A stretch of DNA of 64,000 nucleotides from Panopea generosa. Its lineage: Eukaryota; Mollusca; Bivalvia; Adapedonta; Hiatellidae. The stretch lies in the NCBI GenBank assembly GCA_029582155.1, contig CM055907.1:33353983-33417982 (forward strand), read 5' to 3'. Below the pieces are notes generated by a model. The model was not told the origin of the DNA. It did no database searches and was given only the letters and a program-made list of their open reading frames with translations. The position numbers and the translations under genes are program-made. Positions 6,930 to 61,790 of the stretch are shown piece after piece (within the stretch, counting starts at the first letter, position 1; each line of letters begins with the position of its first letter).

Positions 6930-6944
6930 ACGATCCAGAGCGAG

Positions 6945-35739: not shown

Positions 35740-35963
35740 TCAGGAACCCGTGATAAGTTTATACAAAAACAGAAATAAATAGTAAACAGTTTGATATATA
35801 TTTAGTTTTGGCGTGCTGGGAGTTTGTAAATTTGTAGATGATTTATTTTTAAAAACAGTTGCTATGGAGACAGGTACCATGTTGTTCCCTTCAACAGTAC
35901 TGACCTCTGGTGGCAGGAATACTGTAGATGATGACAGACTGTCCTCTACAGAATCTGGGGGCT
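35740..35963 (-). CDS. ANOS1: Anosmin-like gene, candidate last exon
   Basis: Minus strand. The acceptor AAATTTTCAG ends at 35,964 and the exon starts in the phase left by the 41.2-kb exon, giving E then PPDSVEDSLSSS and so on. If read to the stop at 35,742-35,740 it adds 73 residues after the junction codon: an acidic Ser/Thr-rich linker and then a hydrophobic stretch (residues about 56-70, YQTVYYLFLFLYKLI). A donor-like GAG/GTCAGT at 35,905/35,904 would instead make this a 59-bp internal exon; then the real C-terminus lies further left. Vertebrate anosmin-1 also has a short low-complexity tail after FN3-4 but no membrane segment, so the hydrophobic end may be intronic read-through. Phase match and position support the exon start; its end is uncertain. 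Confidence 0.5.
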
Positions 35964-35999
35964 CTGAAAATTTACAGTATATATTAAATATGTGAATAA

Positions 36000-36345
36000 A
36001 ATATAATCATATAATAAACATGTGAATATAATATAATAATCATGTAAATAAATATAATATAATAATCATGTCAATATAATACAATAATATAATAAACATG
36101 TGAACAGAACATATATATTAAATGTGTGAATGGAATATAATCATATAATAAATGTGTGAATAGAACATATATAATAAACATGAGAATAGAGCACATATAA
36201 TAAACATGTGAATAGAACACATATAAAAATATATGAATAAAATAAATATGTGAATACAGCACATATAATAAACACTGGAATAAAACAAATACAAGAAACA
36301 TGTGAATATAACATATACAAGAGACATGTGAATAAAAAATAGTAC
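36000..36345. repeat. AT-rich minisatellite next to the last-exon acceptor
   Basis: Units of about 20-26 bp built on 'catgtgaatataatataata' and 'gtgaatagaacacatataat' begin within about 30 bp of the acceptor at 35,964. On the minus strand the array is pyrimidine-rich but does not include the AG. Confidence 0.85.
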
Positions 36346-36429
36346 ATAGAGAATCTTATATCATAGAATTATTGACAAATCATGTTGCTGCAAACACTTT
36401 GTTCCATTGTGTTATGAAACGTTAGCCAA

Positions 36430-39400
36430 TACATAATAACTATTCCCTGTAACTGAATGTGGCCCAGTATTATTATACATAATAACTATTCCCTGTAACT
36501 GAATGTGGCCCAGTATTATTATACATAATAACTATTACCTGTTACTTAATGTGGCCCTGTATTATTATATTTAATAACTATTCCCTGTTGCAGAATGTGG
36601 CCCTGTATTATTATATTTAATAACTATTCCCTATTGCTGAATGTGGCCCTGTATTATTATACATAATAACTATTCCCTGTTACTGAATGTGGCCAAGTAT
36701 TATTATACATAATAACTATTACCTGTTGCTGAATGTTGCCCTGTATTATTATATTTAATAACTATTCCCTGTAACTGAATGTGGCCCAGTATTATTATAC
36801 ATAATAACTATTCCCTGTAACTGAATGTGGCCCAGTATTATTATACATAATAACTATCACCTGTTACTTAATGTGGCCCTGTATTATTTTATTTAATAAC
36901 TATTCCCTGTTGCAGAATGTGGCCCTGTATTATTATATTTAATAACTATTCCCTATTGCTGAATGTGGCCCTGTATTATTATATTTAATAACTATTCCCT
37001 ATTGCTGAATGTGGCCCTGTATTATGATACATAATAACTATTCCCTGTTACTGAATGTGGCCCAGTATTATTATACATAATAACTATTACCTGTTGCTGA
37101 ATGTGGCCCTGTATTATTATATTTAATAACTATTCCCTGTTACTGAATGTGGCCCTGTATTATTATATTTAATAACTATTCCCTGTTTCTAAATGTGGCC
37201 CTGTATTATAATATTTAATAACTATTCCCTGTTGCTGAATGTGGCCATGTATTATTTTATTTAATAACTATTCCCTGTTACTGAATGTGGCCCTGTATTA
37301 CTATATTTAATTACTATTCCCTGTTACTGAATGTGGACTGTATTATTATATTTAATAACTATTCCCTGTTTCTAAATGTGGCCCTGTATTATTATATTTA
37401 ATAACTATGAAAGTGGCCCTGTATTATTATATTTAATAAATATTCCCTGTTACTGAATGTGGCCATGTATTATTATATTTAATAACTATTACCTGTTGCT
37501 GAATGTGGCCCTGTATTATAATACACAATAACTATTACCTGTTACTGATTGTGGCCCTGTATTATTATATTTAATAACTATTCCCTGTTGCTGAATTTGG
37601 CCCCTTATTATAACACACAATAACTATTACGTGTTACTGAATGTGGCCCTGTATTATTATATTTAATAACTATTCCCTGTTACTAAATGTGGCCTTGTAT
37701 TATTATATTTAATAACTATTCCCTGTTACTGAATGTGGCCCTGTATTATTATATTTAATAACTATTCCCTGTTACTGAATGTGGCCCTGTATCATTATAT
37801 TTAATAACTTATACCTGTTACTGAATGTGACCCTGTATTATTATATTTAATAACTATTCCCTGTTGCTGAATGTGGCCCTGTATTATTATATTTAATAAC
37901 TATTCCCTGTTGCTGAATGTGGCCCTGTATTATTATATTTCATAACTTTCCCTGTTGCTGGATATGGCCCTGTATTATTATATTTAATAAATATTCCCTG
38001 TTATTGGATGTGGCCCAGTATTATTATATTTTGTAACTATTCCTGTTACTGAATGTGGCCAAGTATTATTATACACAATAACTATTACTTGTTACTGAAT
38101 GTGGCCCTGTATTATTATATTTCATAACTATTCCTTTTTGCTGAATGTGGCCCTGTATTATTATATTTAATAACTATTCCCTTTTGCTGAATGTGGCCCT
38201 GTATCATTATATTTCATAACTATTCCCTGTTGCTTAATGTTGCCCTGTATTATTATATTTCATACCTATTCCCTGTTACTGAATGTGGCCCAGTATTATT
38301 ATACACAATAACACTTACTTGTTACTGAATGTGGCCCTGTATTATTATATTTCATAACTATTCCCTGTTGCTGAATGTGGCCCTGTATTATTTTATTTCA
38401 TAACTATTCCCTTTTGCTGAATGTGGCCCTGTATCATTATATTTCATAACTATTCCCTGTTGCTGAATGTTGCCCTGTATTATTATATTTCATAACAATT
38501 CCCTGTTACTGAATGTGGCCCAGTATTATTATACACAATAATTATTACTTGTTACTGAATGTGGCCCTGTTTTATTATATTTCATAACTATTCCCTGTAA
38601 CTGAATGTGGCCCAGTATTATTATACATAAAAACTATTACCTGTTACTGAATGTGGCCCTGTATTATTATATTTCATAACTATTCCCTGTTACTGAATGT
38701 GGCCCAGTATTATTATACATAATAACTATTACCTGTTACTGAATGTGGCCCTGTATTATTATATTTAATAACTATTCCCTGTTACTGAATGTGGCCCTGT
38801 ATTATTATATTTCATAACTATTCCCTGTTACTGAAAGTGGCCCAGTATTATTATACATTATAACTATTACCTGTTACTGAATATGGCACTGTACTATTAT
38901 ATTTCATAACTATTCCCTGTTACTGAATGTGGCCAAGTATTATTATACACAATAACTATTACCTGTTACTGAATGTGGCCCTGTATTATTATATTTTATA
39001 ACTATTCCCTGTTACTGAATGTGGCCCTGTATTATTATATTTAATTACTATTCCCTATTGCTGAATGTGGCCCTGTATCATTATATTTCATAACTATTCC
39101 CTGTTACTGAATGTGGCCCTGTATTATTATATTTAATAACTATTACCTGTTACTGAATGTGGCCCTGTATTATTATATTTTGTAACTATTCCCTGTTACT
39201 GAATGTGGCCAAGTATTATTATACACAATAACTATTACTTGTTACTGAATGTGGCCCTGTATTATTATATTTCATAACTATACCCTTTTGCTGAATGTGG
39301 CCCTGTATCATTATATTTCATAACTATTCCCTGTTGCTGAATGTTGCCCTGTATTATTATATTTCATAACTATTCCCTGTTACTGAATGTGGCCCAGTAT

Positions 39401-40885
39401 TATTATACACAATAACTATTACCTGTTACTGAATGTGGCCCTGTATTATTATATTTCATAACTATTCCCTTTTGCTGAATGTGGCCCTGTATTATTATAT
39501 TTTAATAACTTTTCCCTGTTGCTGAATGTTGCCCTGTATTATTATATTTCATAACTATTCCCTGTTGCTGAATGTGGCCCTGTATCATTATATTTCATAA
39601 CTATTCCCTGTTGCTGAATGTTGCCCTGTATTATTATATTTCATAACTATTCCCTGTTATTGAATGTGGCCCTGTATTATTATACATAATAACTATTACG
39701 TGTTGCTGAATGTGGCCCTGTATAATTATATTTAATAACTATTCCCTGTTGCTGAATGTGGCCATGTATTATTATATTTCACAACTATTCCCTGTTACTG
39801 ATTGTGGCCCTGTATTATTATATTTAATAACTATTCCCTGTTGATGAATGTGGCCCTGTATAATTATATTTAATAACTATTCCCTGTTTCTGAATGTGGC
39901 CCTGTATTATTATATTAATTACTATTCCCTGTCACTGAATGTGGCCCTGTATTATTATATTTAATAACTATTCCCTGTTGCTGAATGTGGCCCTGTATTA
40001 TTATATTTAATAACTATTCCCTGTTGCTGAATTTGGCCCTGTATTATTATATTTAATAACTATTCCCTGTTGCTGAATGTGGCCCTATATAATTGTATTT
40101 AATAACTATTCCCTGTTGCTGAATGTGGCCCTGTATTATTATATTTAATAACTATTCCCTGTTACTGAAAGTGGCCCTGTATTATTTTATTAATAACTAT
40201 TCCTTGTTGCTGAATGTGGCCCTGTATTATTATATTTAATAACTATTCCCTGTTGCTGAATGTGGCCCTGTATTATTATATTTAATAACTATTCCCTGTT
40301 GCTGAATGTGGCCCTGTATTATTATATTTAATAACTATTCCCTGTTGCTGAATGTGGCCCTGTATTATTATATTTAATAACTATTCCCTGTTGCTGAATG
40401 TGGCCCTGTATTATTATATTAATAACTATTCCCTGTTGCTGAATGTGGCCCTGTATTATTATATTTAATAACTATTTCCTGTTGCTGAATGTGGCCCTGT
40501 ATTATTATATTTAATAACTATTCCCTGTTGCTGAATGTGGCCCTGTATTATTATATTTAATAACTATTCCCTGTTGCTGAATGTGGCCCAGTATTATTAT
40601 ATTTCATAACTATTCCCTGTTGCTGAATGTGGTCCTGTACTATTATATTTAATAACTATTCCCTGTTGCTGAATGTGGTCCTGTATTATTATATTTCGTA
40701 ACTATTCCCTGTTACTGATTGTGGCTCTGTATTACTATATTTAATAACTATTCCCTGTTGCTGAATGTGGCCCTGTATTATTATATTAATAACTATTCTC
40801 TGTTGCTGAATGTGGCCCTGTATTATTATATTTAATAACTATTCCCTGTTGCTGAATGTGGCCCTGTATTATTATATTTAATAAC
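36430..40885. repeat. Minisatellite, 46-bp unit, about 97 copies
   Basis: The unit has 'ctgttgctgaatgtggccct', 'gtattattatatttaat' and 'aactattcc'. Two subtypes ('atatttaataac' and 'atacataataac'/'atacacaataac') alternate in parts of the left two thirds, giving a 92-bp higher-order pattern; the right end (about 39.9-40.6 kb) is nearly homogeneous. It fills most of the intron between the 41.2-kb and 35.9-kb exons and runs without a break into a dispersed element at 40,886. Confidence 0.95.
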
Positions 40886-41055
40886 CATGTGAAGTTTCAT
40901 TTTAATTGGCCTAGTGGTTTCAGAGAAAGAGCTGCTAACAGACAACAGACGACAGACGTCAGACGACAGATGTCAGACGACAGACGACGGACGACAGACA
41001 ACGCGCCATGGCATAAGCACTTCTGGCCTTTGGCCAGTAGAGCTAAAAAACAACA
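40860..41055 (+). mobile_element. 3' part of a dispersed bivalve-type element
   Basis: 'aagtttcattttaattggcc', 'gtggtttcagagaaagag', a run of degenerate 'cagacgacagacg' heptamers, then 'cttctggcctttggccag' and 'agctaaaa'. From memory this layout recurs widely in bivalve genomes as the end of a non-autonomous element. The last 46-bp unit grades directly into it ('taataaccatgtgaag'). Confidence 0.6.
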
Positions 41056-41172
41056 CGTAGTACTGGTTCTATCCAAGAATCAGACTCGAGAGCAGTTCTG
41101 CACTTTCTTCACAATCCAGCTAAATAAATGAATACAAAATAAACCAAACTTTACAAGAGTAATTTCGATTAC

Positions 41173-41320
41173 CTGGATCTTTATCAGAGCCACAGGGAAG
41201 TATATGTGGTGTTAAAATTTCTATATAAGCTGGTTCACCGAGCCCGGCATTGGAGATTGCATAGATCCGGATAATGTATACTTCTGAGTGGCGTAGACTA
41301 TATATTGTGTAGGTGGTCAC
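41173..41320 (-). CDS. ANOS1: Anosmin-like gene, exon: end of FN3-4
   Basis: Minus strand; acceptor GCTACCAG to 41,321, donor G/GTAATC at 41,173/41,172; enters in phase 0, leaves in phase 1; 49 complete codons. It encodes the last strands of an FN3 domain: YSLRHSEVYIIRIYAISNAG has the conserved Y..R+.A.+..G pattern, followed by GEPAYIEILTP and a linker with one Cys (LPCGSDKDP). It resembles the final FN3 domain of anosmin-1 (a GEGPA..KTFRTPELP-like segment), after which only a short tail follows. The preceding exon in transcription order is at 42.8 kb. Confidence 0.85.
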
Positions 41321-41378
41321 CTGGTAGCAAACAAATGGCAAACTTTAGTTTTTATAGCATGTAACAATGTATACATAG

Positions 41379-41620
41379 AACTGGTTAGCTCAGTTGGTAG
41401 AGCGTCTGACTATTAATCGAGGGGTTGGGAGTTCGAATCTCCGCCCGGTCACAGACTCTGTAATGATTGATATAGGACATTACTTCTCATTGTCATTTGT
41501 TTGTCACCGCTGATTCAAGTGGAAAAGTAATTTGTTACTTTTGAGATTGTGTGCTCAAGTACTAGTTACCCTTCATTGATCCCAGGATGTAGAGGTTAAC
41601 TGATCATCTGTTAGTTAATG
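41379..41620 (+). mobile_element. tRNA-derived SINE
   Basis: A tRNA-like head with box A TAGCTCAGTTGG (41,386-41,397) and box B 'agttcgaatct' (41,430-41,440), and an anticodon-loop-like 'ctattaa' that would read ATT. The anticodon stem has mismatches and the 3' part continues into an unrelated tail ('gtggaaaagtaatttgttac'), so this is a SINE and not a working tRNA. It lies in the intron between the 42.8- and 41.2-kb exons. Confidence 0.8.
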
Positions 41621-41689
41621 CAGAAAACAAGCGATGACCAGTGTAAATCATGTCAGTTCAGGCAAACAGGTGTTTAAATCATTATGTGA

Positions 41690-42110
41690 AGCAAATAGAA
41701 GACAAACTTTAAAGGATTTGACATGAAGATTTAATAAGCAGTATGGTAAAAATTTATCAGCTAGGACTGTTAGAAGAAGATTGTTTGATAAGGCTTTTAA
41801 GAGGAGGCAGGTTCATAAGGCTACCACTATCAATAGGAATAAGAAAGAATGAAGTTTTGTAGGGACAAGAACAAGTGGACAGCTGTAGGAAATTGGAAAC
41901 AAATCATTTCAGTGATGGGCAAAGATGTGCAAGGGTAAAAAAAGTTTGGAGAAAGGAGAAAGGAAAAAGAGAAATATTTACCACAGTGCTACAGTGTCAA
42001 TATTCAGATTTTCAGCAAAAATCAGTGGTAAGTTTTATGTTTTGGGGCTGTATTTGCTACAATGGAGTAGGAACATTGACTGTGGTTGATGGGAACATGA
42101 ACAGTTGATA
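41690..42110 (+). pseudogene. Tc1/mariner-type transposase relic
   Basis: The plus strand encodes, over shifted frames, LSARTVRRRLFDKAFKRR (helix-turn-helix-like N-terminal domain, about 41,755-41,810) and later NWKQIIFSDGQ and a segment with VSFMFWGCICYNGVGTLTVV (about 42,030-42,090). These match the W..V.FSDE and SVM.WG.I...G.G.L patterns of Tc1-like transposases. Stops and at least one frameshift break it, and the terminal inverted repeats are not clear. It is inactive. Confidence 0.75.
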
Positions 42111-42745: not shown

Positions 42746-42858
42746 CTTTTCAAGGCTAATCTCAATGGGTGTTTGTTTATGCACAGTTCCATCTGTGCTT
42801 CCTTCCTCCTCTTCCTCCTTAAAATCCTCAGTCACATCATATTTGATCCTGTAAGCAA
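42746..42858 (-). CDS. ANOS1: Anosmin-like gene, exon: middle of FN3-4
   Basis: Minus strand; acceptor TTTTTGTTACAG to 42,859, donor AAAAG/GTTAGA at 42,746/42,745; phase 1 in, 0 out; 37 complete codons. With the G left by the 46.5-kb exon it gives V then AYRIKYDVTEDFKEEEEEGS, the C and C' strands of the FN3 fold (PIxAYxIxY pattern), then an acidic loop of about 20 residues and TPIEISLEK leading to the next exon. The acidic loop is longer than in a typical FN3 domain. Its first 16-20 bases are copied in the adjoining 41-bp array. Confidence 0.85.
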
Positions 42859-44640
42859 CTGTAACAAAAACAATATTCCATACTTGATCCTGTAGGCAAC
42901 TGTAACAAAAACAATATTCCATACTTGATCCTGTAGGCAACTGTAACAAAAACAATATTCAGTACTTTATCCTGTAGGCAACTGCAACAAAGACAATATT
43001 CCATACTTGATTCTGTAGGCAACTGTAGCAAACAAAATATTCCATATTTAATCCTGTAGGCAACTGTAACAAAAACAATATTCCATACTTGATTCTGTAG
43101 GCAACTGTAACAAAAACAATATTCCATACTTGATTCTGTAGGCAACTGTAACAAACAAAATATTCCATACTTAATCCTGTAGGCAACTGTAACAAAAACA
43201 ATATTCCATACTTAATCCTGTAGGCAACTGTAACAAAAACAATATTCCATACTTGATCCTGTAAGCAACTGTAACAAAAACAATATTCCATACTTTATCC
43301 TGTAGGCAACTGTAACAAAAACAATATTCCATACTTGATTATGTAGGCAACTGTAACAAAAACAATATTCCATACTTGATTCTGTAGGCAACTGTAACAA
43401 AAACAATATTCCATACTTAATCCTGTAGGCAACTGTAACAAAAACAATATTCCATACTTGATTCTGTAGGCAACTGTAACAAAAACAATATTCCATACTT
43501 GATTCTGTAGGCAACTGTAACAAAAACAATATTCCATACTTAATCCTGTAGGCAACTGTAACAAAAACAATATTCCATACTTGATTCTGTAGGCAACTGT
43601 AACAAAAACAATATTCCATACTTTATCCTGTAGGCAACTGTAGCAAACAAAATAGTTCATACTTGATCCTGTAGGCAACTGTAACAAAAACAATATTCCA
43701 TACTTTATCCTGTAGGCAACTGTAACAAAAACAATATTCCATACTTGATTCTGTAGGCAACTGTAACAAAAACAATATTCCATACTTTATCCTGTAGGCA
43801 ACTGTAGCAAACAAAATAGTCCATACTTGATCCTGTAGGCAACTGTAACAAAAACAATATTCCATACTTTATCCTGTAGGCAACTGTAACAAAAACAATA
43901 TTCCATACTTGATTCTGTAGGCAACTGTAACAAAAACAATATTCCATACTTTATCCTGTAGGCAACTGTAGCAAACAAAATAGTCCATACTTGATCCTGT
44001 AGGCAACTGTAACAAAAACAATATTCCATACTTTATCCTGTAGGCAACTGTAACAAAAACAATATTCCATACTTGATTCTGTAGGCAACTGTAACAAAAA
44101 CAATATTCCATACTTTATCCTGTAGGCAACTGTAGCAAACAAAATAGTCCATACTTGATTCTGTAGGCAACCGTAGCAAACAAAAAAGTCCATACTTGAT
44201 CCTGTAGGCAACCGTAGTAAACAAAAAAGTCCATACTTGATTCTGTAGGCAACTGTAACAAACAAAAAAGTCCATACTTGATCCTGTAGGCAACCGTAGC
44301 AAACAAAAAAGTCCATACTTGATTCTGTAGGCAACTGTTACAGACAAAATAGTCCATACTTGATCCGGCAGGCAACTGTTACAAACAAAATATTCCATAC
44401 TTAATTCTGTAGACAACTGTTACAAACAAAATATTCCATATTTGATCTTGCAGGCAACTGTAGCTAACAAAATAGTCCATACCTGATCCTGTAGGCAACT
44501 GTAACAAACAAATATTCCATACTTGATCCTGATGGCAACTGAAATAAACCTGGGCATAATAGGTGATATCAGACTGATTGACAGACCAATAGTCCCCCAC
44601 CCAAAGAGTACCAGATAAGGAAGTAACAAAATATTCCATA
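42855..44640. repeat. 41-bp minisatellite made of the 42.8-kb exon's splice acceptor
   Basis: On the minus strand each unit reads TATTGTTTTTGTTACAG, then TTGCCTACAGGATCAA, then GTATGGAA. The first part is the pyrimidine tract and AG of the real acceptor; the second is the first 16 bases of the real exon with one change. About 43 copies, most nearly identical to 44,150 and more varied beyond. Minus-strand open frames of 80-160 codons carry AYRIKYG, the exon's own start followed by read-through. Confidence 0.95.
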
Positions 44641-45117
44641 CTCAATCAAGTAGAAAACTGAAACAAACAAAAATATCTAGTACCTGATCATGTTGAAACT
44701 TGAAACAAACATGACTAGAAGTGATAGATGATGGAAGATTTTAACTTGCTGATTGCTGATGCAATCTATTTTAATGGATCAGTGTTTTTATGTTTTTAAA
44801 TGCAACCCTAGAAAGGATCGTTTCAAGGTTTCAACAAAAGAGGTCATCTATTGCCTCTACCAACAACAACTTACCATGTAACCTCCAACAGCACACACCT
44901 TGGGAAAACACGCAAGGGAGATATAAACAACAAGGAAATAACCATCAGTAGCAAGCCCCCTTAGACATCAGGAAATCAACTTTGACTAAAACCAATGAAT
45001 CAACAAACTGACTTAGACAACATAATCAACATGGACAACATAATCAACATGGACAACATAATCAACATGGACATGTTAATTGTGTTATCCAGTCAATGGT
45101 GCACTGACTGACTTAAC
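44641..45117. other. Short spacer between two arrays
   Basis: Contains an 18-bp tandem repeat 'atggacaacataatcaac' (about three copies at 45,015-45,075). Nothing else is recognised. Confidence 0.5.
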
Positions 45118-46502
45118 CTCTCGATTTCTTTGTAAGTTTCTGATGGAAGATTATAATAGACACTGATTGGGGGACACAAACTGACATATAGGCTGATCTG
45201 ATGGGATGTCCTTGTAAGTTCCTGATGGCAGCTTATAATAGACACTGATTGGGGGACACAAACTGACATATAGGCTGATCTGACGGGATGTCCTTGTAAG
45301 TTCCTGATGGCAGCTTATAATAGACACTGATTGGGGGACACAAACTGACCTATAGGCTGATCTGACTGGATGTCCTCTTAAGTTCCTGATGGCAGCTTAT
45401 AATAGACACTGATTGGGGGACACAAACTGACCTATAGGCTGATCTGACTGGATGTCTTTGTAAGTTTCTAATAGCAGCTTATAACAGACACTGACTGGGG
45501 GACATTAACTGACCTATAGGCTGATCTGACTGGACATAATTGTAAGTTCCTGAAGGTAGCTTATAAAAGACACTGATTGGGGGACACAAACTAACCTATA
45601 AGCTGATCTGACTTTGGATGTCCTTGTAAGTTCCTGATTGCAGCTTATAATAGACACTGATTGGGGGACACAAACTGACCTATAGGCTGATCTGACTGGA
45701 TGTCCTCTTAGGTTCCTGATGGCAGCTTATAATAGACACTGATTGGGGGACACAAACTGACCTATAAGCTGATCTGACTGGATGTCTTTGTAAGTTTCTG
45801 ATGGCAGCTTATAACAGACACTGACTTGGGGACATTAACTGACCTATAGGCTGATCTGACTGGACATAATTGTAAGTTCCTGAAGGTAGCTTATAAAAGC
45901 CACTGATTGGGGGACACAAACTAACCTATAAGCTGATCTGACTTTTGATGTCCTTGTAAGTTCCTGATGGCAGCTTATAATAGAAACTGATTGGGGGACA
46001 CAAACTGACCTATAGGCTGATCTGACTGGATGTCCTCTTAAGTTCCTGATGGCAGCTTATAATAGACACTGATTGGGGGACACAAACTGACCTATAAGCT
46101 GATCTGACTGGATGTCTTTGTAAGTTCCTGAAGGCAGCTTATAACAGACACTGACTGGAGGACATTAACTGACCTATAGGCTGATCTGACTGGATGTAGT
46201 TGTAAGTTCCTGAAGGTAGCTTATAACAGACACTGATTGGGGGACACAAACTAACCTATCAGCTGATCTGACATTGGATGTCCGTGTAAGTTCCTTATTG
46301 CAGCTTATAATAGACACTGACTTGGGGACATAAACTGATCTATAGGCTGATCTGACTGGATGTCCGTTAAGTTCCTGAAGGTAGCTTATAATAGACACTG
46401 ACTGGGGGACACACTTACCTATAGGCTGATCTGACTTTGGATGTCTGTGTAAGTTCCTTATTGCAACTTATAATAGACACTGATTGGGGGATACACACTT
46501 AC
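45118..46502. repeat. 83-bp minisatellite carrying the 46.5-kb exon's end and donor
   Basis: About 17 copies of a unit with 'ctgacctataggctgatctg', 'gatgtccttgtaagttcctg', 'gcagcttataatagacac' and 'tgattgggggacacaaa'. On the minus strand the segment around 'CAGATCAGCCTATAG' followed by GTCAGT, GTTAGT or GTAAGT copies the last 20-25 bases of the exon and its donor. The two copies nearest the exon keep the 'ctgactttggatg' form and the GTAAGT donor of the exon itself. Confidence 0.93.
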
Positions 46503-46613
46503 CTATAGGCTGATCTGACTTTGGATGCTTCCAGGAAATATGGAGGTTTATGCTACAGTTGTTTGGGATGAATTGTGGGTCAACATTCCTCGGACTCTTT
46601 GGTACTTGTGGAA
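46503..46613 (-). CDS. ANOS1: Anosmin-like gene, exon: start of FN3-4
   Basis: Minus strand; acceptor AGTTTCAG to 46,614, donor ATAG/GTAAGT at 46,503/46,502; phase 1 in and out; 36 complete codons. It encodes PQVPKSPRNVDPQFIPNN and then CSINLHISWKHPKSDQPI: the proline-rich A strand and the B strand with the FN3 core tryptophan (residue 27 of the exon). The D/YQP(I/M) end before the exon junction matches the corresponding domain of anosmin-1. The next exon (42.8 kb) supplies the Y.I.Y strand. Confidence 0.85.
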
Positions 46614-46914
46614 CTGAAACAACAATAGTGTTATCACATGCAGGGATGAATTACTTCTAGAGAAAATTGACACATTTTAACATATAATATGATTAGTAAG
46701 GAGAGACCACACTTACAACTAATGTCAGCAATACAGTCTTCATCAGAAATGTTTACTGTTACACATTTTTAGGTTGAAACCCATAACAGAACTTTGGTAA
46801 TATTCTTAAGTTGGCTTCTTTAAAAAGAATCAAAAGGAGAGGCCACTAAATGGCCAATTAAATTTGAGGTCAGTAAACTCGCATGTTTATTATTTATTTA
46901 TTATTGTGGGTAAA
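46614..46914. other. Intron segment without recognised features
   Basis: Non-repetitive sequence between the 46.5-kb exon and the 75-bp array; nothing is recognised. Confidence 0.5.
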
Positions 46915-49900
46915 GGTTATGCCTTAAACACTCATCTTGCAGCTGTCAGGATATAGACCATTCTACTACCATACATTATTATGTGTAAAGGTTATGCCTT
47001 ATACACTCATTTTGCAGCTGTTAGGGTGTATCCCTTCTACAATCATACATTATTATGGGTAAAAGTTATGCCTTATACACTCATTTTGCAGCTGTCAGGG
47101 TGTATCCCTTCTACTACCATACATTATTATGGGTAAAGGTTATGCCTTATATACTCATCTAGCAGCTGTCAGGGTGTATCCCTTCTACAATCATACATTA
47201 TTCTGGGTAAAGGTTATGCATAATACACTCATCTTGCAGCTGTCAGGGTGTATCCCTTCTACTATCATACATTATTATGGGTAAAGGTTATGCCTTATAC
47301 ACTCATTTTGCAGCAGTCGGGGTATAGATCCTTCTACTACCATGCATTATTATGGGTAAAGGTTATGCCTTATACACTCATCTAGTAGCTGTCAGTGTGT
47401 AGACCCTTCTACTACCATGCATTATTATGGGTAAAGGTTATGCCTTATACACTCATCTAGCAGCTGTCAGTGTGTAGACCCTTCTACTACCATGAGTTAT
47501 TCTGGGTAAAGGTTATGCCTTATACACTCATCTAGCAGCTGTCAGTGTGTATCCCATTCTACTACCATACATTATTCTGGATAAAGGTTATGCCTTATAC
47601 ACTCATCTAGCAGCTGTCAGTGTGTATCCCATTCTACTACCATACATTATTCTGGATAAAGGTTATGCCTTATACACTCATCTAACAGCTGTCAGGGTGT
47701 ATCCCATTCTACTACCATACATTATTCTGGATAAAGGTTATGCCTTATACACTCATCTAGCTGCTGTCAGGGTGTATCCCCTTCTACTACCATACATTAT
47801 TTTTGGTAAAGGTAATGCCTTATAAACTCATCTTGCAGCTCTCAAGATGTATCCCCTTCTAATTATAGATTATTCTGTGTAAAGGTTATACTCTTAACAC
47901 TCATCTAGCAGCTGTCATGGTGTATCCCCTTCTACTACCATACATTATTCTGGGTAAAGGTTATGCCTTTTACACTCATCTTGCAGCTGTCAGGGTGTAT
48001 CCCCTTCTACAACCATACATTATTCTGGATAAAGGTTATACCTTTTACACTCAACTAGCAGCTGTCAGGGTGTATCCCCTTCTACAACCATACATTATTC
48101 TTGGTAAAGGTAATGCTTTATAAAGTCATCTTGCAGCTGTCAGGGTGTATCCCCTTCTACAACCGTACATTATTCTGGATAAAGGTAATGCCTTATACAC
48201 TCATCTTGCAGCTGTCAGGGTATAGACCCTTCTAATACCATACCTTATTCTGGGTAAAGGTTACGCCTCATACACTTATCTTGCAGCTATCAGGGTGTAT
48301 CCCTTCTTCTACCATACATTATTCTGGGTAAAGATTATGCCTTATACACTCATCTAGCAGCTGTCAGGGTTTAGACCCTTCTCTTATCATACATTATTCT
48401 GGGTAAAGGTTATGCATTATACACTCATCTTGCAGCTGTCAGGGTTTATTCCCTTCTACTACTATACATTATTCTGGGTAAAGGTTATGCGTTAAACACT
48501 CATCTAGCAGTTGTCAGGGTGTATTCCCTTCTACAACCATAATATATTATTCGTGGTAAAGGTTATGCCTTATACACTCATCTAGCAGCTGTCTGGGTAT
48601 AGACCATTCTACTACTATGCATTATTCTGGTAAAACGTTATGCTTTATACACTCATCTAGCAGCTGTCAGGGTGTATCCCCTTCTACTACCATACATTAT
48701 TCAGGGTAAAGGTTATGCCTTTTACACTCATCTACCAGCTGTCAGGGTGTATCCCTTTCTACAACCATACATAATTTTGGTAAAGGTTATGCCTTATACA
48801 CTCATCTAGCAGCTGTCAGGGTGTATCCCCTTCTACTACCATACATTATTCTGGGTAAAGGTTATACCTTATACACTCATCTTGCAGCTGTCAGGGTATA
48901 TCCCTTTATACTACCATACATTATTATTGGTTAAGGTTATGCCTTATACACTAATCTTGCAGCTGTCAGTGTGTATCGCCTTCTGCTACAATACATTATT
49001 CTGGGTAAAGGTTATGCCTTATACACTCATCTTGCAGCTGTCAGGGTATAACCACTTCTACAACCACACATTATTCTGGGTAAAGGTTATTCCTTATACA
49101 CTCATCTAGCAGCTGTCAAGGTTTATCCCCTTCTGCTACCATACATTATTCTGGGTAAAGGTTATGTCTTATACACTCATCTTGCAGCTGTCAGGTTAAA
49201 GACCCTTCTACAACCATACACTATTCTGGGTCAATGTTATGCCTTATACACTCATCTTGCAGCTGTCAGGGTGTATCCCTTTCTAATACCATACATTATT
49301 CTGGGTAAAGGTTATGCCTTATACACTCATCTAGCAGCTGTCAGTGTGTATCCCATTCTACTACCATACATTACTCTGGGTAGAGGTTATGCTTTATACA
49401 CTCATCTAGCAGCTGTCAGTGTGTATCCCCTTCTACTACCATACATTATTCTGGGTAGAGGTTATGCCTAATACACTCATCTAGCAGTTGTCAGGGTATA
49501 GACCCTTCTTCTACCATACATTATTCTGGGTAAATGTTATGCTTTATACACTCATCTAGCAGCTGTCAGGGTGTATCCTCTTCTACTACCATACATTATT
49601 CTGGGTAAAGGTTATGCCTTATACACTCATCTAGCAGCTGTCAGGGTATAGACCCTTCTACTACCATACATTATTCTGGGTAAAGGTTATGCCTTATACA
49701 CTCATGTAGCAGCTGTCAGGGTGTATCCTCTTCTACTACAATACATTATTCTGGGTAAAGGTTATGCCTTATACACTCATCTAGCAGCTGTCAGGGTGTA
49801 TCCTCTTCTACTACCATACATTATTCTGGGTAAAGATTATGCCATATACACTCATCTAGCAGCTGTCAGGATGTATCCTCTTCTACTACCATACATTATT

Positions 49901-51767
49901 CTGGGTAAAGGTTATGCCATATACACTCATCTAGCAGCTGTCAGGGTGTATCCTCTTCTACTATCATACATTATTCTTGGTAAAGGTAATGCCTTATACA
50001 CTCATCTAGCAGCTGTCTGGGTATAGACCCTTCTACAACCATACATTATTCTGGGTAAAGGTTATGCCTTATACACTCATCTAGCAGCTGTCAGGGTATA
50101 GACCCTTCTACTACCATACATTATTCTGGGTAAAGGTTATGCCTTATACACTCATCTAGCAGCTGTCAGGGTGTATCCTGTTCTACTACCATACATTATT
50201 CTGGGTAAAGATTATGCCTTATACACTCATCTAGCAGCTGTCAGGATGTATCCCATTCTACTACCATACATTATTCTGGGTAAAGATTATGCCTTTTATA
50301 CTCATCTAGCAGCTGTCAGGGTTTATTCGCTTCTACTACTATACATTATTCTGGGTAAAGGTTATGCGTTAAACACTCATCTAGCAGTTGTCAGGGTGTA
50401 TTCCATTATACAACCATATATTATTCTGGGTAAAGGTTATGCCTTATACACTCATCTAGCAGCTGTCTGGGTATAGACCATTCTACTACTATGCATTATT
50501 CTGGTAAAACTTTATGCCTTATACACTCTTCTAGCAGCTGTCAGGGTGTATCCCTTCTACTACCATACATTATTCTGGGTAAAGGTTATGCCTTGTACAC
50601 TCATCTACCAGCTGTCAGGGTGTATCCCTTTCTACTACCATACATAATTTTGGTAAAGGTTATGCCTTATACACTCATCTAGCAGCTGTCAGTGTGTAGA
50701 CCCTTCTACTACCATACATTATTCTGGGTAAAGGTTATGCTTTATACACTCATCTAGCAGCTGTCAGGGTGTATCCCCTTCCACTACCATACATTATTTT
50801 GGATAAAGGTTATGCCTTATACACTCATCTAGCAGTTGTCAGGGTGTATCCCCTTCTACTACCATACATTATTCTGGGTAAAGGTTATGCTTTATACACT
50901 CATCTAGCAGCTGTCAGGGTGTTTTCCCTTCTACAACCATACATTATTCTGGGTAAAGGTTATGCTTTATACACTCATTTACCAGCTGTCAGGGTGTGTT
51001 CCCTTCTACTACCATACATTATTTTGGGTAAAGGTTATGCCTTATACACTCATCTAGCAGCTGTCAGAGTGTATTCCCTTCTACAACCATACATTATTCT
51101 GGGTAAAGGTTATGCTTTATACACTCATTTACCAGCTGTCAGGGTGTGTTCCCTTCTACTACCATACATTATTTTGGATAAAGGTTATGCCTTATACACT
51201 CATCTAGCAGTTGTCAGGGTGTATCCCCTTCTACTACCATACATTATTCTGGGTAAAGGTTATGCTTTATACACTCATCTAGCAGCTGTCAGGGTGTTTT
51301 CCCTTCTACAACCATACATTATTCTGGGTAAAGGTTATGCTTTATACACTCATTTACCAGCTGTCAGGGTGTGTTCCCTTCTACTACCATACATTATTTT
51401 GGGTAAAGGTTATGCCTTATACACTCATCTAGCAGCTGTCAGGGTGTATTCCCTTCTACTACCATACATTATTTTGGGTAAAGGTTGTGCCTTATACACT
51501 CATTTAGCAGCTGTCAGAGTGTATTCCCTTCTACTACCATACATTATTTTAGGTAAAGGTTGTGCCTTATACACTCATCTAGCAGCTGTCAGAGTGTATT
51601 CCCTTCTACTACCATACATTATTTTGGGTAAAGGTTGTGCCTTATACACTCATTTACCAGCTGTCAGAGTGTATTCCCTTCTACTACCATACATTATTTT
51701 AGGTAAAGGTTGTGCCTTATACACTCATCTAGCAGCTGTCAGAGTGTATTCCCTATTACTACCATAC
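46915..51767. repeat. 74-75-bp minisatellite starting at the 51.8-kb exon's donor
   Basis: About 65 copies of a unit with 'cttctactaccatacattat', 'tctgggtaaaggttatgcct', 'tatacactcatctagcag' and 'ctgtcagggtgtatcc'. On the minus strand each unit contains GTATGGTAGTAGAAGGGA, the same bases as the first bases of the intron at 51,767 (GTATGGTAGTAATAGGGA). 75-bp units keep plus-strand frames open (up to 334 codons, 25-residue repeat); I regard these as artefacts. A block of five units (about 376 bp) is duplicated at 50.8-51.5 kb. Confidence 0.95.
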
Positions 51768-51942
51768 CTCTAGCTGGACACTCAGGCGGCAAGCTGTTAC
51801 TCTTCACGAGTATTTTCTGACATATTGGAGTCCTCAGTTTGACTGTGGAGGGTTTTCCCTGTACACCCCACTTTGTTACAGCACTCACACGGATAGTATA
51901 TTGACATTCGTACTGTAAATCATAAACTTCAAACCGAGTCAC
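51768..51942 (-). CDS. ANOS1: Anosmin-like gene, exon: end of FN3-3
   Basis: Minus strand; acceptor TTAATTTCAG to 51,943, donor AGAG/GTATGG at 51,768/51,767; phase 0 in, 1 out; 58 complete codons. FEVYDLQYECQYTIRVSAVT has the FN3 L.y...Y.+RV.AV pattern with a Cys in the F strand. It is followed by KLRTPICQKI and later PPECPAR. The spacing of these cysteines (Y-C-Q-Y, TP-x-C, then a Cys 16 residues on) is what I recall for the third FN3 domain of anosmin-1 (CKY, TPPC, GC) and is unusual for FN3 domains in general. This is the best single piece of evidence for the family. Confidence 0.88.
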
Positions 51943-52833: not shown

Positions 52834-52931
52834 ATCTGAGGTTGCTGAATTAGATATTTTTTCTGCATAATCCTGGTCACATGAGTGGGGTGACCAGTAA
52901 ATCATGAAACTCTTTACGATCTCCAGGAAAT
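52834..52931 (-). CDS. ANOS1: Anosmin-like gene, exon: middle of FN3-3
   Basis: Minus strand; acceptor GTTTGTAG to 52,932, donor GAT/GTAAGT at 52,834/52,833; phase 1 in, 0 out; 32 complete codons. With the G from the 53.5-kb exon it starts D, FLEIVKSFMIYWSPHSCDQD. This is the C strand of the FN3 domain (Y.+YW.P) with a Cys seven residues after the Tyr, matching the W.P.AC pattern of the third anosmin FN3 domain. Too short for standard gene-finding cut-offs; accepted because of its phase and domain fit. Confidence 0.82.
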
Positions 52932-53523
52932 CTACAAACAGAGATTTATTCATTATAGCAGAACACACTCACCATATAGAATAACTACAATTTGTAAATA
53001 GCCATACACAATATATTTTACAATAAAATATAATATTTGGGATTGAAAAGTTGATAAATAAAAGTATACATAGAGTATTTTGCCACAGCTGACCCAGTGA
53101 GGCCAGTGAAGATAAAGACAAGAGGGCCAGTACACAGGACAAAACTTAGCCACATTCTGCCCTAGCTGTAGGAAAATAAAATATTTTGTAAAATTGAAAA
53201 GACTGGAGGTGAGTATATTTAAGTCCTGGTTTATGTTGTGGTATATCACTGGTGTGAAGGTAGTCTATCCAAGTCCTTGATGTCTCTCCAATCACGACTG
53301 TTCAACCCCCTGAAAAAGCATGATGGAACTCCATGCCTGTCCCACAGTCCATTGCTGTTTAACACTTACCAAACTGTAACTTCATTTAATTATCCCTGAA
53401 GCAACTGACCAATCAACATGTTCAAATCTCATTGCTATGTAACAGACCCAAACCTGAGTACTGGGTTGTATCTGGGTTGTATCTGGGTTGTATATAGTCT
53501 GGTGTGAGGTTACCTACCTTTAC

Positions 53524-53646
53524 CAACCTTCCATGTGAGCAGTGCCTTCAGTGAGCCTTTGTTAAAGTAGGGCAAATTATCCACCACTTCTAGTTTCTCC
53601 ACCTGAATAATTTCTGCATAAACGGATATCACAGATTCCTGATTGT
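53524..53646 (-). CDS. ANOS1: Anosmin-like gene, exon: start of FN3-3
   Basis: Minus strand; acceptor CTACTTGCAG to 53,647, donor GGTTG/GTAAAG at 53,524/53,523; phase 1 in and out; 40 complete codons. It encodes a linker (NQESVISVYAEIIQ), then VEKLEVVDNLPYF and GSLKALLTWKV. The order LEV, a Tyr/Phe-containing turn, G.L.A.+.W matches the start of the third FN3 domain of anosmin-1 as I remember it. A second donor GTAGGT lies exactly six bases further on; its use would insert Gly-Lys without changing frame. Confidence 0.85.
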
Positions 53647-53689
53647 CTGCAAGTAGATTAGAAATCTTGTATTTAATACAGATAGTATC

Positions 53690-55560: not shown

Positions 55561-56159
55561 GAAAACCCATGTATGAATTACATAATACAGAACTTAAAAC
55601 AACAAAAATGCATTTTAACTTTTCAACACACACTGACAAATTGTAACATCAAATGCAAACAAAACTCTAAAACTTATAAATAAAACGAAACATACAAAAA
55701 ATAATAAAAAGATAAAAGAAACAGTCTACAACACTTATGTAAGACCACAGTTAGGATACTGCTCCTCTATGTGACACCCCGGCTATAGACACAAACATAC
55801 AAAAAGATTGACTTATTGATTGAATGTTTAGCGTCATTTTCATGCCATTGAGGACAGTTTTCTGGGATCCTGAAAGGTTAACCAATAGTCAAGCTCACCC
55901 CATTTCCGCAAGTAACTGATAAATTTCCCACTTGAATCAGTGGTGAGAGACAAATGATAATGAGACACCGACTGAGCTAATGGGGCTGGCAAAATAGAAA
56001 GAGTACAGACAGAGGGCAGCAGCCAGATATATATCAAATAATTGTGTTTTTACAAGTACCAAAATGTTTCAAATTGTAAACTGGCAAACCCTCCATCAAA
56101 GAAGAATAAATTAATCACTTATCTTGTTCTATAAAATATCACACAACCTGGTTACTCTA

Positions 56160-56474
56160 CACAGGTAAAAATGCCACTTATGTTTAACATATGTTTTGTC
56201 GAACATAACGTATGTTTTACATGCGTTTTGGTTAACAGACGTTTTAAAACATACGTTTAACATACGTAAAGAAACATATGATAATCAGAAACGTACGTTA
56301 AACATACGTTTACAGAAACATATGTTAAACGCATGTCCAGAAACGTATGTTAAACGCATGTCCAGAAACGTATGTTAAACGTGCGTGGTACTATTTATAT
56401 GTAAACGTATGTTTTGGCACGTACGTTTAACATACGTTTAACGTACGTTTACATGCGTGGCATTTTTACCTGTG
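56160..56474. mobile_element. 315-bp MITE with TA target duplication
   Basis: Perfect 18-bp terminal inverted repeats CACAGGTAAAAATGCCAC, extended by ATG two bases further in, are flanked on both sides by TA (56,158-56,159 and 56,475-56,476), as for Tc1/mariner-type insertions. The interior consists of ACGTA-rich, self-complementary motifs ('aaacgtatgttaaacg', 'catacgtttaacatacgt') and two copies of a 25-bp unit with 'cgtatgttaaacgcatgtcc'. No open frame. Confidence 0.88.
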
Positions 56475-57545
56475 TAGATCACTACCATCATAGTCAAATA
56501 AAAAATCTAAACTTTCATATTCCTTTTTTTCAACCCTCTTTTTCCCTAAAACAATCAGAAATTTGGAATAGCATCCCTTATTAATTGCATGTCCTGTTAA
56601 GGTCAGTACTGCCAGTACAGCTGGCCTGGCAACAGTAACATTTTAAACAAACCCTGTTTTCAATATTAGTAATGTAGTAAGTTGTTTTTAAATGAAAATA
56701 CATGTAAACTTTGTTATTTTTGAACCATATTTCATTCTTTATATTTATTTTTGCTGTTCCGACAGTGCCTCCCAGTAATAATCAGAAAGTGATTGTTGGG
56801 GGTACCATGTAGATGAAGATAGACAGAACGCTACCACCTTGATGTGCACTCCTCACAGATATTGATGTTTTGTGATTGTCAGATAGAAATAAACAAAGCA
56901 CTACAGTTAATCACATTAAAGGAAACATCTCTTACTTTATTTATGAAAATCCAACTTGTCATTTCAGAGTAACAGTGGATGCAAAATTAGATTTTTTTAC
57001 ATTTACTTTAAGTTGTAGAGGCCATCTTAGATTTCAAACAACCTAATTTTCCTTACAGTCCAATAAGATAGAACGACTTGTTATAATTACAACATTCTTG
57101 TAAAATCCGATGATAAACAAACTAGTAGGTTTGAAAGAGCTGAACTCACAAACAATAGTAAGCAGACAGAGATAGACAAAAGCAGAGTGGCCAGAGGTCT
57201 GCTGATCTTTCATCAATAGAGTTATTAATTACAAGGGCTTCAAAAGAATATCCAGCTATATTTCTATATAAACAGCACTTACAGTTTTTGTTTATCTTAA
57301 ATGAAAAAAAAATGTTATTCAATATAAAACTTATAAAATCATTAAATGTTTGCATAATTCAATAGTAATTTACTTAATGTATGAAATCCAAGGAAAAAAT
57401 CAAGGATTAGAAAAAATAAAAATTGTTATAATTTAATTATTGACTTAGTCAATGTTTAATTCATGTTTGAGATTGTATTAGTTACCAAGGTAACAAAAAT
57501 CTATTAGTACTGGAAACATTAATAAATCCCATGCCTTGTGATTAC

Positions 57546-57602
57546 CTTCCATTGCTCTATCATCTACAAGTGTAGCAAACAATCCTTCTATATCATTAGT
57601 AT
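57546..57602 (-). CDS. ANOS1: Anosmin-like gene, short linker exon between FN3-2 and FN3-3
   Basis: Minus strand; acceptor GCCTATTTTAG to 57,603, donor GGAAG/GTAATC at 57,546/57,545; phase 1 in and out; 18 complete codons. It encodes an acidic linker, TNDIEGLFATLVDDRAME. A linker region also separates these two domains in vertebrate anosmin-1, though there it is basic. The call rests on splice signals, phase and position between the domain exons. Being symmetric (phase 1-1, 57 bp), it could be skipped without changing the frame. Confidence 0.62.
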
Positions 57603-58437: not shown

Positions 58438-58528
58438 CTTGATGTCCTGGCGGAGCATAGGTGGTTATGTATTTGGATACTTTATTGCTCTGAAGTTGTC
58501 TATTACCATGCTGTATGATTGCCTTTAT
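58438..58528 (-). CDS. ANOS1: Anosmin-like gene, exon: end of FN3-2
   Basis: Minus strand; acceptor ATTTTTGCAG to 58,529, donor CAAG/GTAATC at 58,438/58,437; phase 0 in, 1 out; 30 complete codons. Joined to the exon at 59.9 kb it continues YHIQ with IKAIIQHGNRQLQSNKVSKY and then ITTYAPPG: the F and G strands of an FN3 domain. The RxLxxxKV stretch before a T-rich strand end resembles the second FN3 domain of anosmin-1. Confidence 0.83.
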
Positions 58529-58599
58529 CTGCAAAAATGTATGCAACATGATTAGAGGCATCAAAACTACCATATTCCCCCATATAAACGCTCTCAAAC

Positions 58600-59830
58600 A
58601 GACTCAAAGTGTTGTCATACAAACTCAAAGTGTGACCTTGACCTTTCAGTACAGGTCTGGGTCGTACATGCGACACATTGCTATGTCATCATGATGAATT
58701 GAGCCAAGCTAAAGATAAAGTTACAGACCAAACACAAAATCTCACACACACTCAAAGTGTTGCAAAACAAACTCAAAGTGTATACTTGACCTTTGAGGTA
58801 CGGGTCTGGGTCTCACGTGCGACATGTCGTCATGTCATCATGATGAATTGAGCCAAGTAAAAGACAAAGCTACAGACCAGACACAAAACATCAAACAAAA
58901 TGAAAGTGTGACCTTGACCTTAATCATGTCATGTTGGTCAAGTAAGCCAAGTGTTTTTGAAATGCATCAATGTATGACTGGACACGAAATCTCACACAGA
59001 CTCAAAGTGTTGAAAAATAAACTCAAAGTGTGACCTTGACTTTTGAGATACGGGTGGGAGTCTTACGCGCAACAGGACGTCATGTCATGCTGATGAATTG
59101 AGTGAAGTGTTTTTGAAATCTCATACAGACTGAAAGTGTCGTCAAACAAAGTTAAATTGTGACATTGACCACTGAAGTGGAGTCTGGATGTTATGCATGA
59201 CACGTCGTCATATTATGTTGATCATTAGTAACAAGTATTTATAAAATCCATCTATGCATGACAAAGTTGCAGGCCAGACACCAAATCTCACACAGACTCA
59301 AAGTTTTGTCAAATAAACTCAAAGTGTGACCTTGACCTTTGAGGTAAAGATGTGGGTCTTATGCATGACATGTTGTCATGCTGATGAATTGAGCCAAGTG
59401 TTTTTGAAATTTAACTATAGGTGACAAAGTTACAGACTAGACAGGAAATACAAACAAACAAGTGTCATCAAGCAATGTTAAATTGTGACCTTCACCTTTG
59501 AAGTGGGAGTCTGGGTGTTACACACGACATCTCATCATGTTATGTTGATCAATTGTAGCCGGTATTTATAATCCATCTTTGCATGACAAAGTTACAGGCT
59601 GGACATGAAATCTCACACAGACTCAGGTGTGATCTTGACCTTTGAGGTACGGGTGTGGGTCTTACTCGCGACACATCATCATGTTATGTTGATCATTTGT
59701 AGCAAGTATTACCAAAATCCATCTATGCATGACAAAGTTATAGACAGGACACGAAATATAGGCAATACACGAAATACCAGACGGACTGACGGACACTGCG
59801 ATTACTATATGCCACCACAAAAATTTGGGA
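58600..59830. repeat. Tandemly arranged copies of the 'tgaccttgacctttga' dispersed repeat
   Basis: About six to seven diverged copies of a roughly 180-200-bp sequence: 'cacacagactcaaagtgt', 'gtgaccttgacctttgaggt', 'acgggtctgggtct', 'cgacacgtcgtcatg', 'catgacaaagttacag'. The last ends in 'cagacggactgacggac' and 'gggggataaaaaa', a tail I associate with bivalve dispersed elements. It fills the intron between the 59.9- and 58.5-kb exons. Confidence 0.8.
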
Positions 59831-59877
59831 GTGGGGGATAAAAAAAAGTCAAGCTGTCAGATGGTAATGGTTGGTAC

Positions 59878-59934
59878 CTGTATGTGATAGGTGGTCCCTG
59901 GCTTCAACTTCTTCAACTTGAACTCATGAACATG
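59878..59934 (-). CDS. ANOS1: Anosmin-like gene, exon: E-F part of FN3-2
   Basis: Minus strand; acceptor TCCATTTACAG to 59,935, donor CAG/GTACCA at 59,878/59,877; phase 0 in and out; 19 codons, HVHEFKLKKLKPGTTYHIQ. This is the typical FN3 signature L..L.P.T.Y.+Q around the E-F turn. The exon is only 57 bp and has no start or stop of its own; frame and domain position place it between the 61.0- and 58.5-kb exons. Confidence 0.83.
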
Positions 59935-60976
59935 CTGTAAATGGATAAGAACTAATGGTTAGAATGTAAGGTATCCATTTCATCCAGGGTCAGTTTTATA
60001 AGACCAGTATTACGTCTCGCACATCAAATGATTGTGCACTGTTCTACATTACAGAGAAATGCACTTCCGAAACACTGAGCACATTACCAATGGTTGGAAA
60101 AATGCCTTGTTTCTATAGAATGACAGTCCTCTGTTGCTCCAAATATGCAGAATAAAAGCATGGGGTTGACCAGATTGCTTTTTCCCAATTTCCATGGTTT
60201 GATTGCACCCTTCATTTTTGACAATTCTGCCCATTTTTGGTAAAATATCACTATGCATCTTTAAACTGTTATATTTTCATCCAACAGTACCCAATGTCAT
60301 CCATACTTGGCAAAAATCATGAAAATGTTCCAATGTTCTCATATACACAAAGAAATTTCATTTTATGCGTTTTCAACAAAAATAATGCCCAAATGATTTA
60401 CATGGTTCTAATTTCTTGGCTGTAAGAATTTTTCTACAGCCGTGTAAGGGAGGTAATTCTTAAGTAAGACCTCTTTTTTACACTGGTGAAAATTTGATAC
60501 ACATGGGTTAACACGACCTCTGACAATGACTCGATACTTTATGTAATGAAACAAATGGAAGAATAAATGCAGTAACCATATTTAAACTTAATCAATGCAC
60601 TAAATTAAATATTTAAATTTCATTTTTATTGATAAATAGTAACACAAAAACCACATGAGACATAAAATATTGGATATTAAACTTATAACTTAGGAAAATA
60701 AAAATAAATCCCCCAGGAAAATTAATGATTTAACAGTATACACAAATCATGTGAAAAAGTTCTATCTAATATCATCAAGTGATCCAACATTAATAGTTAA
60801 CAGCTGTAGTAGCATTAGTCAGTGCCACGGAGTTATTTAATATACCTATATAATTTTTTATACAAGCACTAGATAAATTCAATCAGCTCACTTTAAACCA
60901 AGTGCTGGAATTAAAAACATGTAATCAGAAAGGAACAACAATTTTGGCAAATTAGTTTTTGGGCACATGTACTTAC
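59935..60976. other. Intron, AT-rich, nothing recognised
   Basis: No exon or repeat family is supported here. Confidence 0.5.
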
Positions 60977-61054
60977 GCCTGGAATATTCTTCTCCAGTAC
61001 CGGGATTCTGACCAGCACTGGACTGATGCTAGACAGACGCTCACTATAAGTTAT
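60977..61054 (-). CDS. ANOS1: Anosmin-like gene, exon: C-C' part of FN3-2
   Basis: Minus strand; acceptor TTCAATTTCAG to 61,055, donor AGGC/GTAAGT at 60,977/60,976; phase 0 in and out; 26 codons. ITYSERLSSISPVLVRIPVL then EKNIPG continues the WKYV end of the 63.7-kb exon (Y.V.YS, FN3 strand C) and leads into HVHEF. Its acceptor is copied in the adjoining 31-bp array. Confidence 0.8.
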
Positions 61055-61790
61055 CTGAAATTGAACAAAATCACACAAAACTAGTGAAATCTGACAGAAT
61101 CACACAAAACTATCCTGAAATTGGACAGAATCACACAAAACTGTACTGAAATTGGACAGAATCATACAAAACTAGTAAAATCTGACAGAATCACAAAAAA
61201 ACTGTACTGAAATTGGACATAACCACACAAAACTGCACTGAAACTGGACAAAATCACACAAAACTACTGAAATTGGCAGAATCACACAAACTGCACTAAA
61301 ATTGGACGAAATCACACATAACTGTACTGAAATTGGACAAAACCACACAAAACTGCACTGAAATTGGACAAAATCACACAAAACTGTACTGAAATTGGAC
61401 AGAATCACACAAAACTGCACTGAAATTGGACAAAATCACACAAAACTGTACTGAAATTGGACAAAACCACACAAAACTGCACTGAAATTGGACAATATCA
61501 CACAAAACTGTACTGTAATTGAACCAAACCACACAAAACTGCACTGAAATTGGACAAAATCACACAAAACTGTACTGAAATTGGACAGAATCACACAAAA
61601 CTGTGCTAAAATTGGACAAAATCACACAAAACTGTACTGTAATTGAACAAAATCTCACAAAACTATACTGAAATTGGACAGAATCACACAAAAATGTACT
61701 GAAATTGGACAGAATCTCACAAAACTATACTGAAATCAGACAGAATCACACAAAACTGTACTAAAATTGAAATTGGACAGAATACACAAC
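61055..61790. repeat. 31-bp minisatellite containing the 61.0-kb exon's acceptor
   Basis: About 23 copies of a unit with 'ctgaaattggacaaaatcac' and 'acaaaactgta'. On the minus strand each contains TGTGATTTTGTCCAATTTCAG-like sequence, differing by about one base from the true acceptor at 61,055 (TGTTCAATTTCAG). The array begins at the exon border. Confidence 0.93.

Follow-up and report, generated by a model that had tools for sequence, protein, structure and literature searches.

Four minisatellites in the introns of a single anosmin-1-like gene of the bivalve Panopea generosa lie against exons and repeat the gene's own splice signals. The gene stands in a 64,000-nucleotide stretch of the genome (the window; NCBI GenBank assembly GCA_029582155.1, contig CM055907.1, positions 33,353,983 to 33,417,982 of the forward strand), and all positions below count from the first nucleotide of that window. 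An earlier note on this DNA had described the four arrays, and they are upheld by Tandem Repeats Finder (TRF), by the open frame through the joined exons and by an alignment of homologous proteins. The note knew of no named system that fits, but the 'mirage' minisatellites of amphioxus do fit (PMC3087553, PMC3902484); these are described as tandem repeats lying across exon-intron boundaries, on either the 5' or the 3' side (PMC3087553). We consider it likely that the clam arrays are minisatellites of this type, that they arose from ordinary tandem duplications crossing splice junctions, and that they have been tolerated since the copy next to the exon works. That duplication is tolerated at exon borders, as the note had suggested, fits the evidence.

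Arrays were called by TRF, unit layout was obtained by wrap-around alignment, and exon content was assessed by a shuffled-exon test with 2000 shuffles. Gene and border arrays are given on the minus strand, and a slash marks the border between exon and intron. The 82-bp array (45123-46520, 17.0 copies, TRF periods 82 and 330) has a unit made of the exon tail AGTCAGATCAGCCTATAG, the donor and intron; the exon at 46503..46613 ends in ...AGTCAGATCAGCCTATAG/gtaagt, and its final 18 nt lie inside the unit, all of them identical (0/2000 shuffles). Donor, exon tail and some 17 copies had been recognized at this place before, with a unit of 83 bp where TRF gives 82 bp. The 41-bp array (42838-44548, 41.8 copies) repeats the intron end, the acceptor and the exon head (...TTTTTGTTACAG/TTGCCTACAGGATCAAGTATG); the initial 21 nt of the exon at 42746..42858, which begins tttttgttacag/TTGCTTACAGGATCAAATATG after correction of its end to 42,858, lie inside the unit and 19 of them are identical (0/2000 shuffles). 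The presence of exon sequence in these two units is beyond doubt.

The remaining two arrays follow the border more simply. The first base of the 75-bp array (46900-51767, 65.0 copies) is that of the donor GT of the exon at 51768..51942, which ends CCAGCTAGAG/gtatgg; the array edge is exactly at the GT, the shuffled-exon test finds no exon sequence in the unit (P = 0.48), and the array occupies its intron apart from 286 bp. The 31-bp array (61055-61769, 23.3 copies) has units that each end in an acceptor copy (CAATTTCAG), the final one being the acceptor of the exon at 60977..61054 (caatttcag/ATAACT). Wrap-around alignment of this array spans 61017-61798, reaching weakly into the exon, and the exon match is doubtful (21 nt, from 17 nt into the exon onwards; P = 0.028). 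The copy numbers noted earlier for these two arrays, about 65 and about 23, are those returned by TRF, and, judged by the TRF consensus sequences, no two of the four units seem to be related, as had been said.

Set beside the amphioxus mirages, described in Adh3 and the globin genes BflGb6 and BflGb9 (PMC3087553), with troponin C added and PGBD5 compared in a second paper (PMC3902484), the clam arrays have in common boundary-spanning units, splice signals in interior copies and concerted evolution (PMC3087553, PMC3902484). Exon and intron sequence stand together in one unit in the 82- and 41-bp arrays, so that strict mirage anatomy is seen in two of the four; the 75-bp array falls short of it and coincides with the splice site, and the 31-bp array is doubtful. 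AG or GT signals are found in most interior copies of all four arrays. Copy turnover is visible in lag identities as a four-unit period (330 bp) in the 82-bp array and as two- and four-unit periods in the 41-bp array, in which identical copies also recur; such higher-order periods are what unequal exchange would be expected to produce. Lag identities reveal no clear higher-order structure in the 75- and 31-bp arrays. Copies are mostly distinct in three of the arrays (60/65, 17/17 and 22/25), with 23/42 in the fourth.

Unit length is likewise similar, at 31-82 bp in the clam and 10-160 bp in amphioxus (PMC3087553). The differences concern scale and host. The 17-65 copies of the clam arrays compare with 3 and 6 in two BflGb6 haplotypes (PMC3087553). 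One clam gene has four such arrays, some of its introns consisting almost wholly of array sequence, and the host is a bivalve rather than a cephalochordate. Length and somatic instability are on record for amphioxus Adh3 (cited in PMC3087553); the clam arrays were read from one haplotype. The literature searched, which left out most subscription papers, yielded no mirage in a mollusc; the clam arrays thus belong to a known kind of minisatellite in a phylum that is new as far as that search tells.

The exon borders are those of an anosmin-1-like bivalve gene with 12 exons within 63,804-35,740 of the window, which join into a single open frame with a stop at its end. Pfam fn3 matches three stretches of the spliced protein, and the best solved-structure match is Anosmin 1 (1zlg, E 2.5e-20). 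Ten homologous proteins were found with 50-60% identity across the full query: six named by their source as anosmin-1-like or KALM-like (from Mercenaria, Mya (two), Dreissena and Ruditapes (two)), one hypothetical protein from Mactra and three unnamed. The query for the Pfam, homologue and structure searches had GK where the corrected protein has VAYR; the corrected protein was used only for the second of two alignments (A2, all ten homologues), the first (A1) containing nine of the ten. In A2 the homologues have some 300 more N-terminal residues than the protein assembled here, and the N-terminal part of the gene probably lies beyond the window.

Reading frame and homologues together point to the four borders. 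In A2 the 61.05-kb junction is gapless in 8/8 homologues covering it and the 46.5/42.86-kb junction in 9/9, and the 51.77-kb junction is gapless in 8/9, with one additional residue in a Dreissena protein (P0006). One border was corrected. The acceptor chosen initially at 42.8 kb (...gcttacag/GATC) broke the frame with the strong donor ATAG/GTAAGT at 46,503, and eight of the nine homologues in A1 cover the 46.5/42.8-kb stretch with two residues more than that gene model. An acceptor 10 nt upstream, tttttgttacag/TTGCTTACAGG (ttgttacag/TTGCTTACAGG), moves the exon end to 42,858 and was adopted because the homologues place it there and the frame opens with ATAG/GTAAGT, giving PI-VAYRIKYDVT against PI-DSYLVTY in the homologues; the earlier description of the 41-bp array as acceptor plus exon head holds with this corrected end. 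Two other readings were rejected. A donor 4 nt downstream at 46.5 kb (GGTAA/gtgtgt) is in frame but left a two-residue gap against the homologues, which is gone with the corrected acceptor, and a further exon near 44.55-44.60 kb (VNQSDITYYAQ), between the 46.5- and 42.8-kb exons, misfits in phase by reading and has no room in the homologues.

We propose that the introns were once short apart from their arrays and underwent ordinary tandem duplication of segments 31-82 bp long, some of which ran across a splice junction or up to one. The gene would tolerate this because the copy adjoining the exon retains the original junction, the remaining copies turning into intron, and growth to 17-65 copies may have followed by unequal exchange, slippage or conversion, as for arrays elsewhere in this repeat-rich window. 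Splicing would take place at the exon-proximal copy only. We infer this from the early stops that splicing at interior copies would bring: all 106 interior sites found by motif at their real positions (16 + 46 + 8 + 36) lead to a stop ahead of the normal residue 468, at residues 42-103 for the 31-bp acceptor (n = 16), 279 for the 75-bp donor (n = 46), 318 for the 82-bp donor (n = 8) and 318-448 for the 41-bp acceptor (n = 36). The single open frame and the homologues of relatives are compatible with undisturbed, regular splicing of the mRNA, and for the amphioxus mirages reverse-transcription PCR is said to suggest that splicing is not interfered with (PMC3087553).

The larger arrays of the gene that lie off the borders also support ordinary duplication: of the seven larger arrays, two keep clear of borders and a third misses one by 15 nt. 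A 46-bp minisatellite of 97 copies (36434..40885) and a 33-bp minisatellite of 19 copies (62695..63314) lie in mid-intron without exon contact and serve as internal controls. The third, an AT-rich array on the minus strand with a unit of about 26 bp (35979..36337), begins at 35,979 and lies upstream of the last acceptor (35,963) at a distance of 15 nt; it had been placed about 30 bp from that acceptor, and its unit contains no splice site.

How surprising four border hits among these seven arrays are depends on the introns in which they are placed. The earlier note held that their placement is hard to put down to chance, which stands only on present intron lengths (0.17 hits expected, P(>=4) ~1e-5). 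With each array reduced to one unit and placed randomly in its own intron, the expectation is 0.96 border hits among the 7 arrays, against the 4 seen (P(>=4) = 0.0057, P(>=3) = 0.050). Chance is less remote than claimed because little non-array intron is left (286 bp in the intron at 46.6-51.8 kb, 574 bp at 42.9-46.5 kb and 398 bp at 36.0-41.2 kb), and a random unit often reaches a border; outside arrays, the seven array-free introns have 586-3899 bp and the fourth array-bearing intron 1287 bp. The P values moreover exaggerate the surprise because the gene was chosen for showing the pattern.

The count also depends on which repeats enter it. Dropped TRF rows in the gene span, of low copy number or short, are 162 bp x 2.6 (52288), 171 bp x 2.6 (62225), 25 bp x 3.8 (56286), 149 bp x 2.1 and 21 bp x 1.9 (58592-58594), 18 bp x 3.2 and 9 bp x 5.7 (45016-45018), units of 7-14 bp, and rows giving the same arrays at other periods. 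By coordinates no dropped repeat touches a splice site, the nearest (53493) being 24 nt from the donor at 53517, and with them included 4/7 falls to 4 of a larger total. Arrays at 1-35 kb, where the sole gene identified is at 6930-7955, were not taken as controls.

Several points weigh against an origin by ordinary duplication with tolerance. Four of seven exceeds the 0.96 expected (P about 0.006), P(>=4) falls to 0.0005 with introns twice as long and to 0.0006 with arrays free to fall in any intron of the gene, the 75-bp array ends exactly at an exon edge with zero exon bases, which is rare for a random segment, and GT or AG is still intact in most interior copies. The number of border hits is thus moderately above what chance would give. 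This leaves some room for tandem duplication being seeded preferentially at exon-intron borders, with arrays over-represented there genome-wide, by R-loops, stalled replication at transcribed junctions or repair templated by splicing intermediates. The excess over the collapsed-intron null and the 75-bp array that begins exactly at the donor GT speak for such seeding, as does the like anatomy of several amphioxus genes (PMC3087553, PMC3902484). However, the evidence comes from a single gene picked after the fact, its 46- and 33-bp arrays ignore the borders, and with introns half as long P(>=4) rises to 0.054. It seems rather unlikely that minisatellites of the clam (and of amphioxus) are born preferentially at splice junctions by a transcription- or splicing-linked process, with tandem amplification making introns grow outward from exon edges.

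A function of the arrays in splicing, in which repeated donors and acceptors would control which site is spliced or how fast, or would let the intron be removed in steps, is improbable. It is favoured by the retention of splice dinucleotides: GT is intact in 57/65 copies of the 75-bp array (real donor counted) and, by reading of the listed strings, in 16/17 copies of the 82-bp array (real donor counted), and AG in 38/41 scored copies of the 41-bp array (real acceptor counted) and in 23/25 scored positions of the 31-bp array (real acceptor counted, as is one position that lies in the exon). The splice columns are nevertheless no more conserved than their neighbours, at 0.938 versus 0.932 for the rest of the unit (75 bp), 0.948 versus 0.932 (82 bp), 0.931 versus 0.903 (31 bp) and 0.976 versus 0.934 (41 bp); they rank within the top 27-51% of circular windows and never in the top quarter, showing no special conservation. 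All but one of the interior donors are also weaker than the real ones. Mean U1 pairing of interior versus real donors is -3.1 versus -7.7 kcal/mol and -6.0 versus -11.6 kcal/mol in the two donor arrays, and U1 pairing is as good as the real donor's in 0/64 interior donors of the 75-bp array and in 1/16 of the 82-bp array (in the 82-bp array the scored stretch began one base early, with the whole site included). The human gene IFI6 (6-16) has a minisatellite unit with a splice donor, giving several donors, and its repeats are said to give alternative mRNAs, whereas the interior sites of the clam would break the frame, and splicing at any of the 106 brings an early stop. In favour of a function, the intronic minisatellite CeRep25B of C. 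elegans is linked to complex alternative splicing; it is over-represented near alternative splicing regions and described by its motifs, and the abstract does not state that it is made of a gene's own splice site (PMC4039745). We read the interior splice-site copies of the clam as tolerated by-products.

Intron gain or renewal, by which the array-filled introns would themselves have come from duplicating a stretch that held a splice signal, is about as improbable, or slightly more so. The 82-bp unit contains AG/GT, and intron gain has been proposed for the amphioxus mirages (PMC3087553) and described in potato RdRp, in which an intron was born from a tandem duplication across an intron-exon border (PMC4974935). 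The potato case, an AGGT model, resembles the clam arrays in that a boundary-crossing duplication copies splice signals; there, however, one duplication gave a new intron (PMC4974935), whereas the clam has many copies and no sign of a new one. No residues are missing in homologues at the junctions (with the one additional residue at 51.77 kb), which makes old introns equally possible. An artefact of annotation or assembly is very improbable: one acceptor was initially misplaced by 10 nt and array copy number is hard to assemble, but the exons join without interrupting the frame, homologues agree at the array junctions and copies are mostly distinct in three arrays.

The other exons, on the minus strand, were placed by frame, splice sites and homologues unless stated otherwise. 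The first anosmin exon found in the window (63677..63804) encodes an FN3 part (...DMPIWKYV), and those at 59878-59934, 58438-58528, 57546-57602, 53518-53646 and 52834-52931 are surrounded by introns without long minisatellites. According to A2 the 57-nt exon at 57546-57602 is lacking in some clam homologues and is possibly an alternative cassette exon. The exon at 41173..41320 (VTTYTIYSLRHSEVY...) is followed by the last coding exon (35740..35963, EPPDSVED...LITGS*, stop 35740-35742), placed by frame and splice sites. On the plus strand, the anosmin introns hold a Tc1/mariner-like transposase fragment recognized by eye (MFWGCICYNGVGTLTVVDGN, 41863-42108), with nothing above the Pfam cut-off, and a tRNA-Asn-like sequence (ARAGORN, 41379-41452) that is probably the head of a tRNA-derived short interspersed nuclear element. 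A sequence at 56156-56478 resembles a miniature inverted-repeat transposable element, with 28-nt terminal inverted repeats that are 93% complementary and inner ACGTATGTTTAAC-type repeats. Among 25 of 81 pairs of inverted repeats, none is tied to array borders.

By a count of 17 array rows hand-picked from the TRF output, arrays occupy 57% of the window; within the gene span their share is 50%. Their density in the window (40-bp x 101, 74-bp x 69, 50-bp x 88, 46-bp x 97 and others) seems unusually high. The plus-strand open reading frame of 341 aa at 6930-7955 shows protein repeats by eye and has 83 homologues in bivalves and gastropods, uncharacterised by the names shown, with identities of 74-75% and the best homologues covering 99% in one open reading frame. 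Ten other open reading frames (nine in 1-35 kb and one at 41.9 kb) gave no match at the Pfam curated cut-off, three having weak matches (E 0.01-0.09).

If the clam arrays are indeed mirages, then mirages are no peculiarity of lancelets, the pattern recurring on a larger scale outside that animal group. That a single clam gene has four mirages, with as many as 65 copies, would mean that introns can lengthen by kilobases while their splice sites stay unmoved. Such a gene would offer a test bed both for how the spliceosome settles on a single site when dozens look almost alike and for intron gain via tandem duplication.

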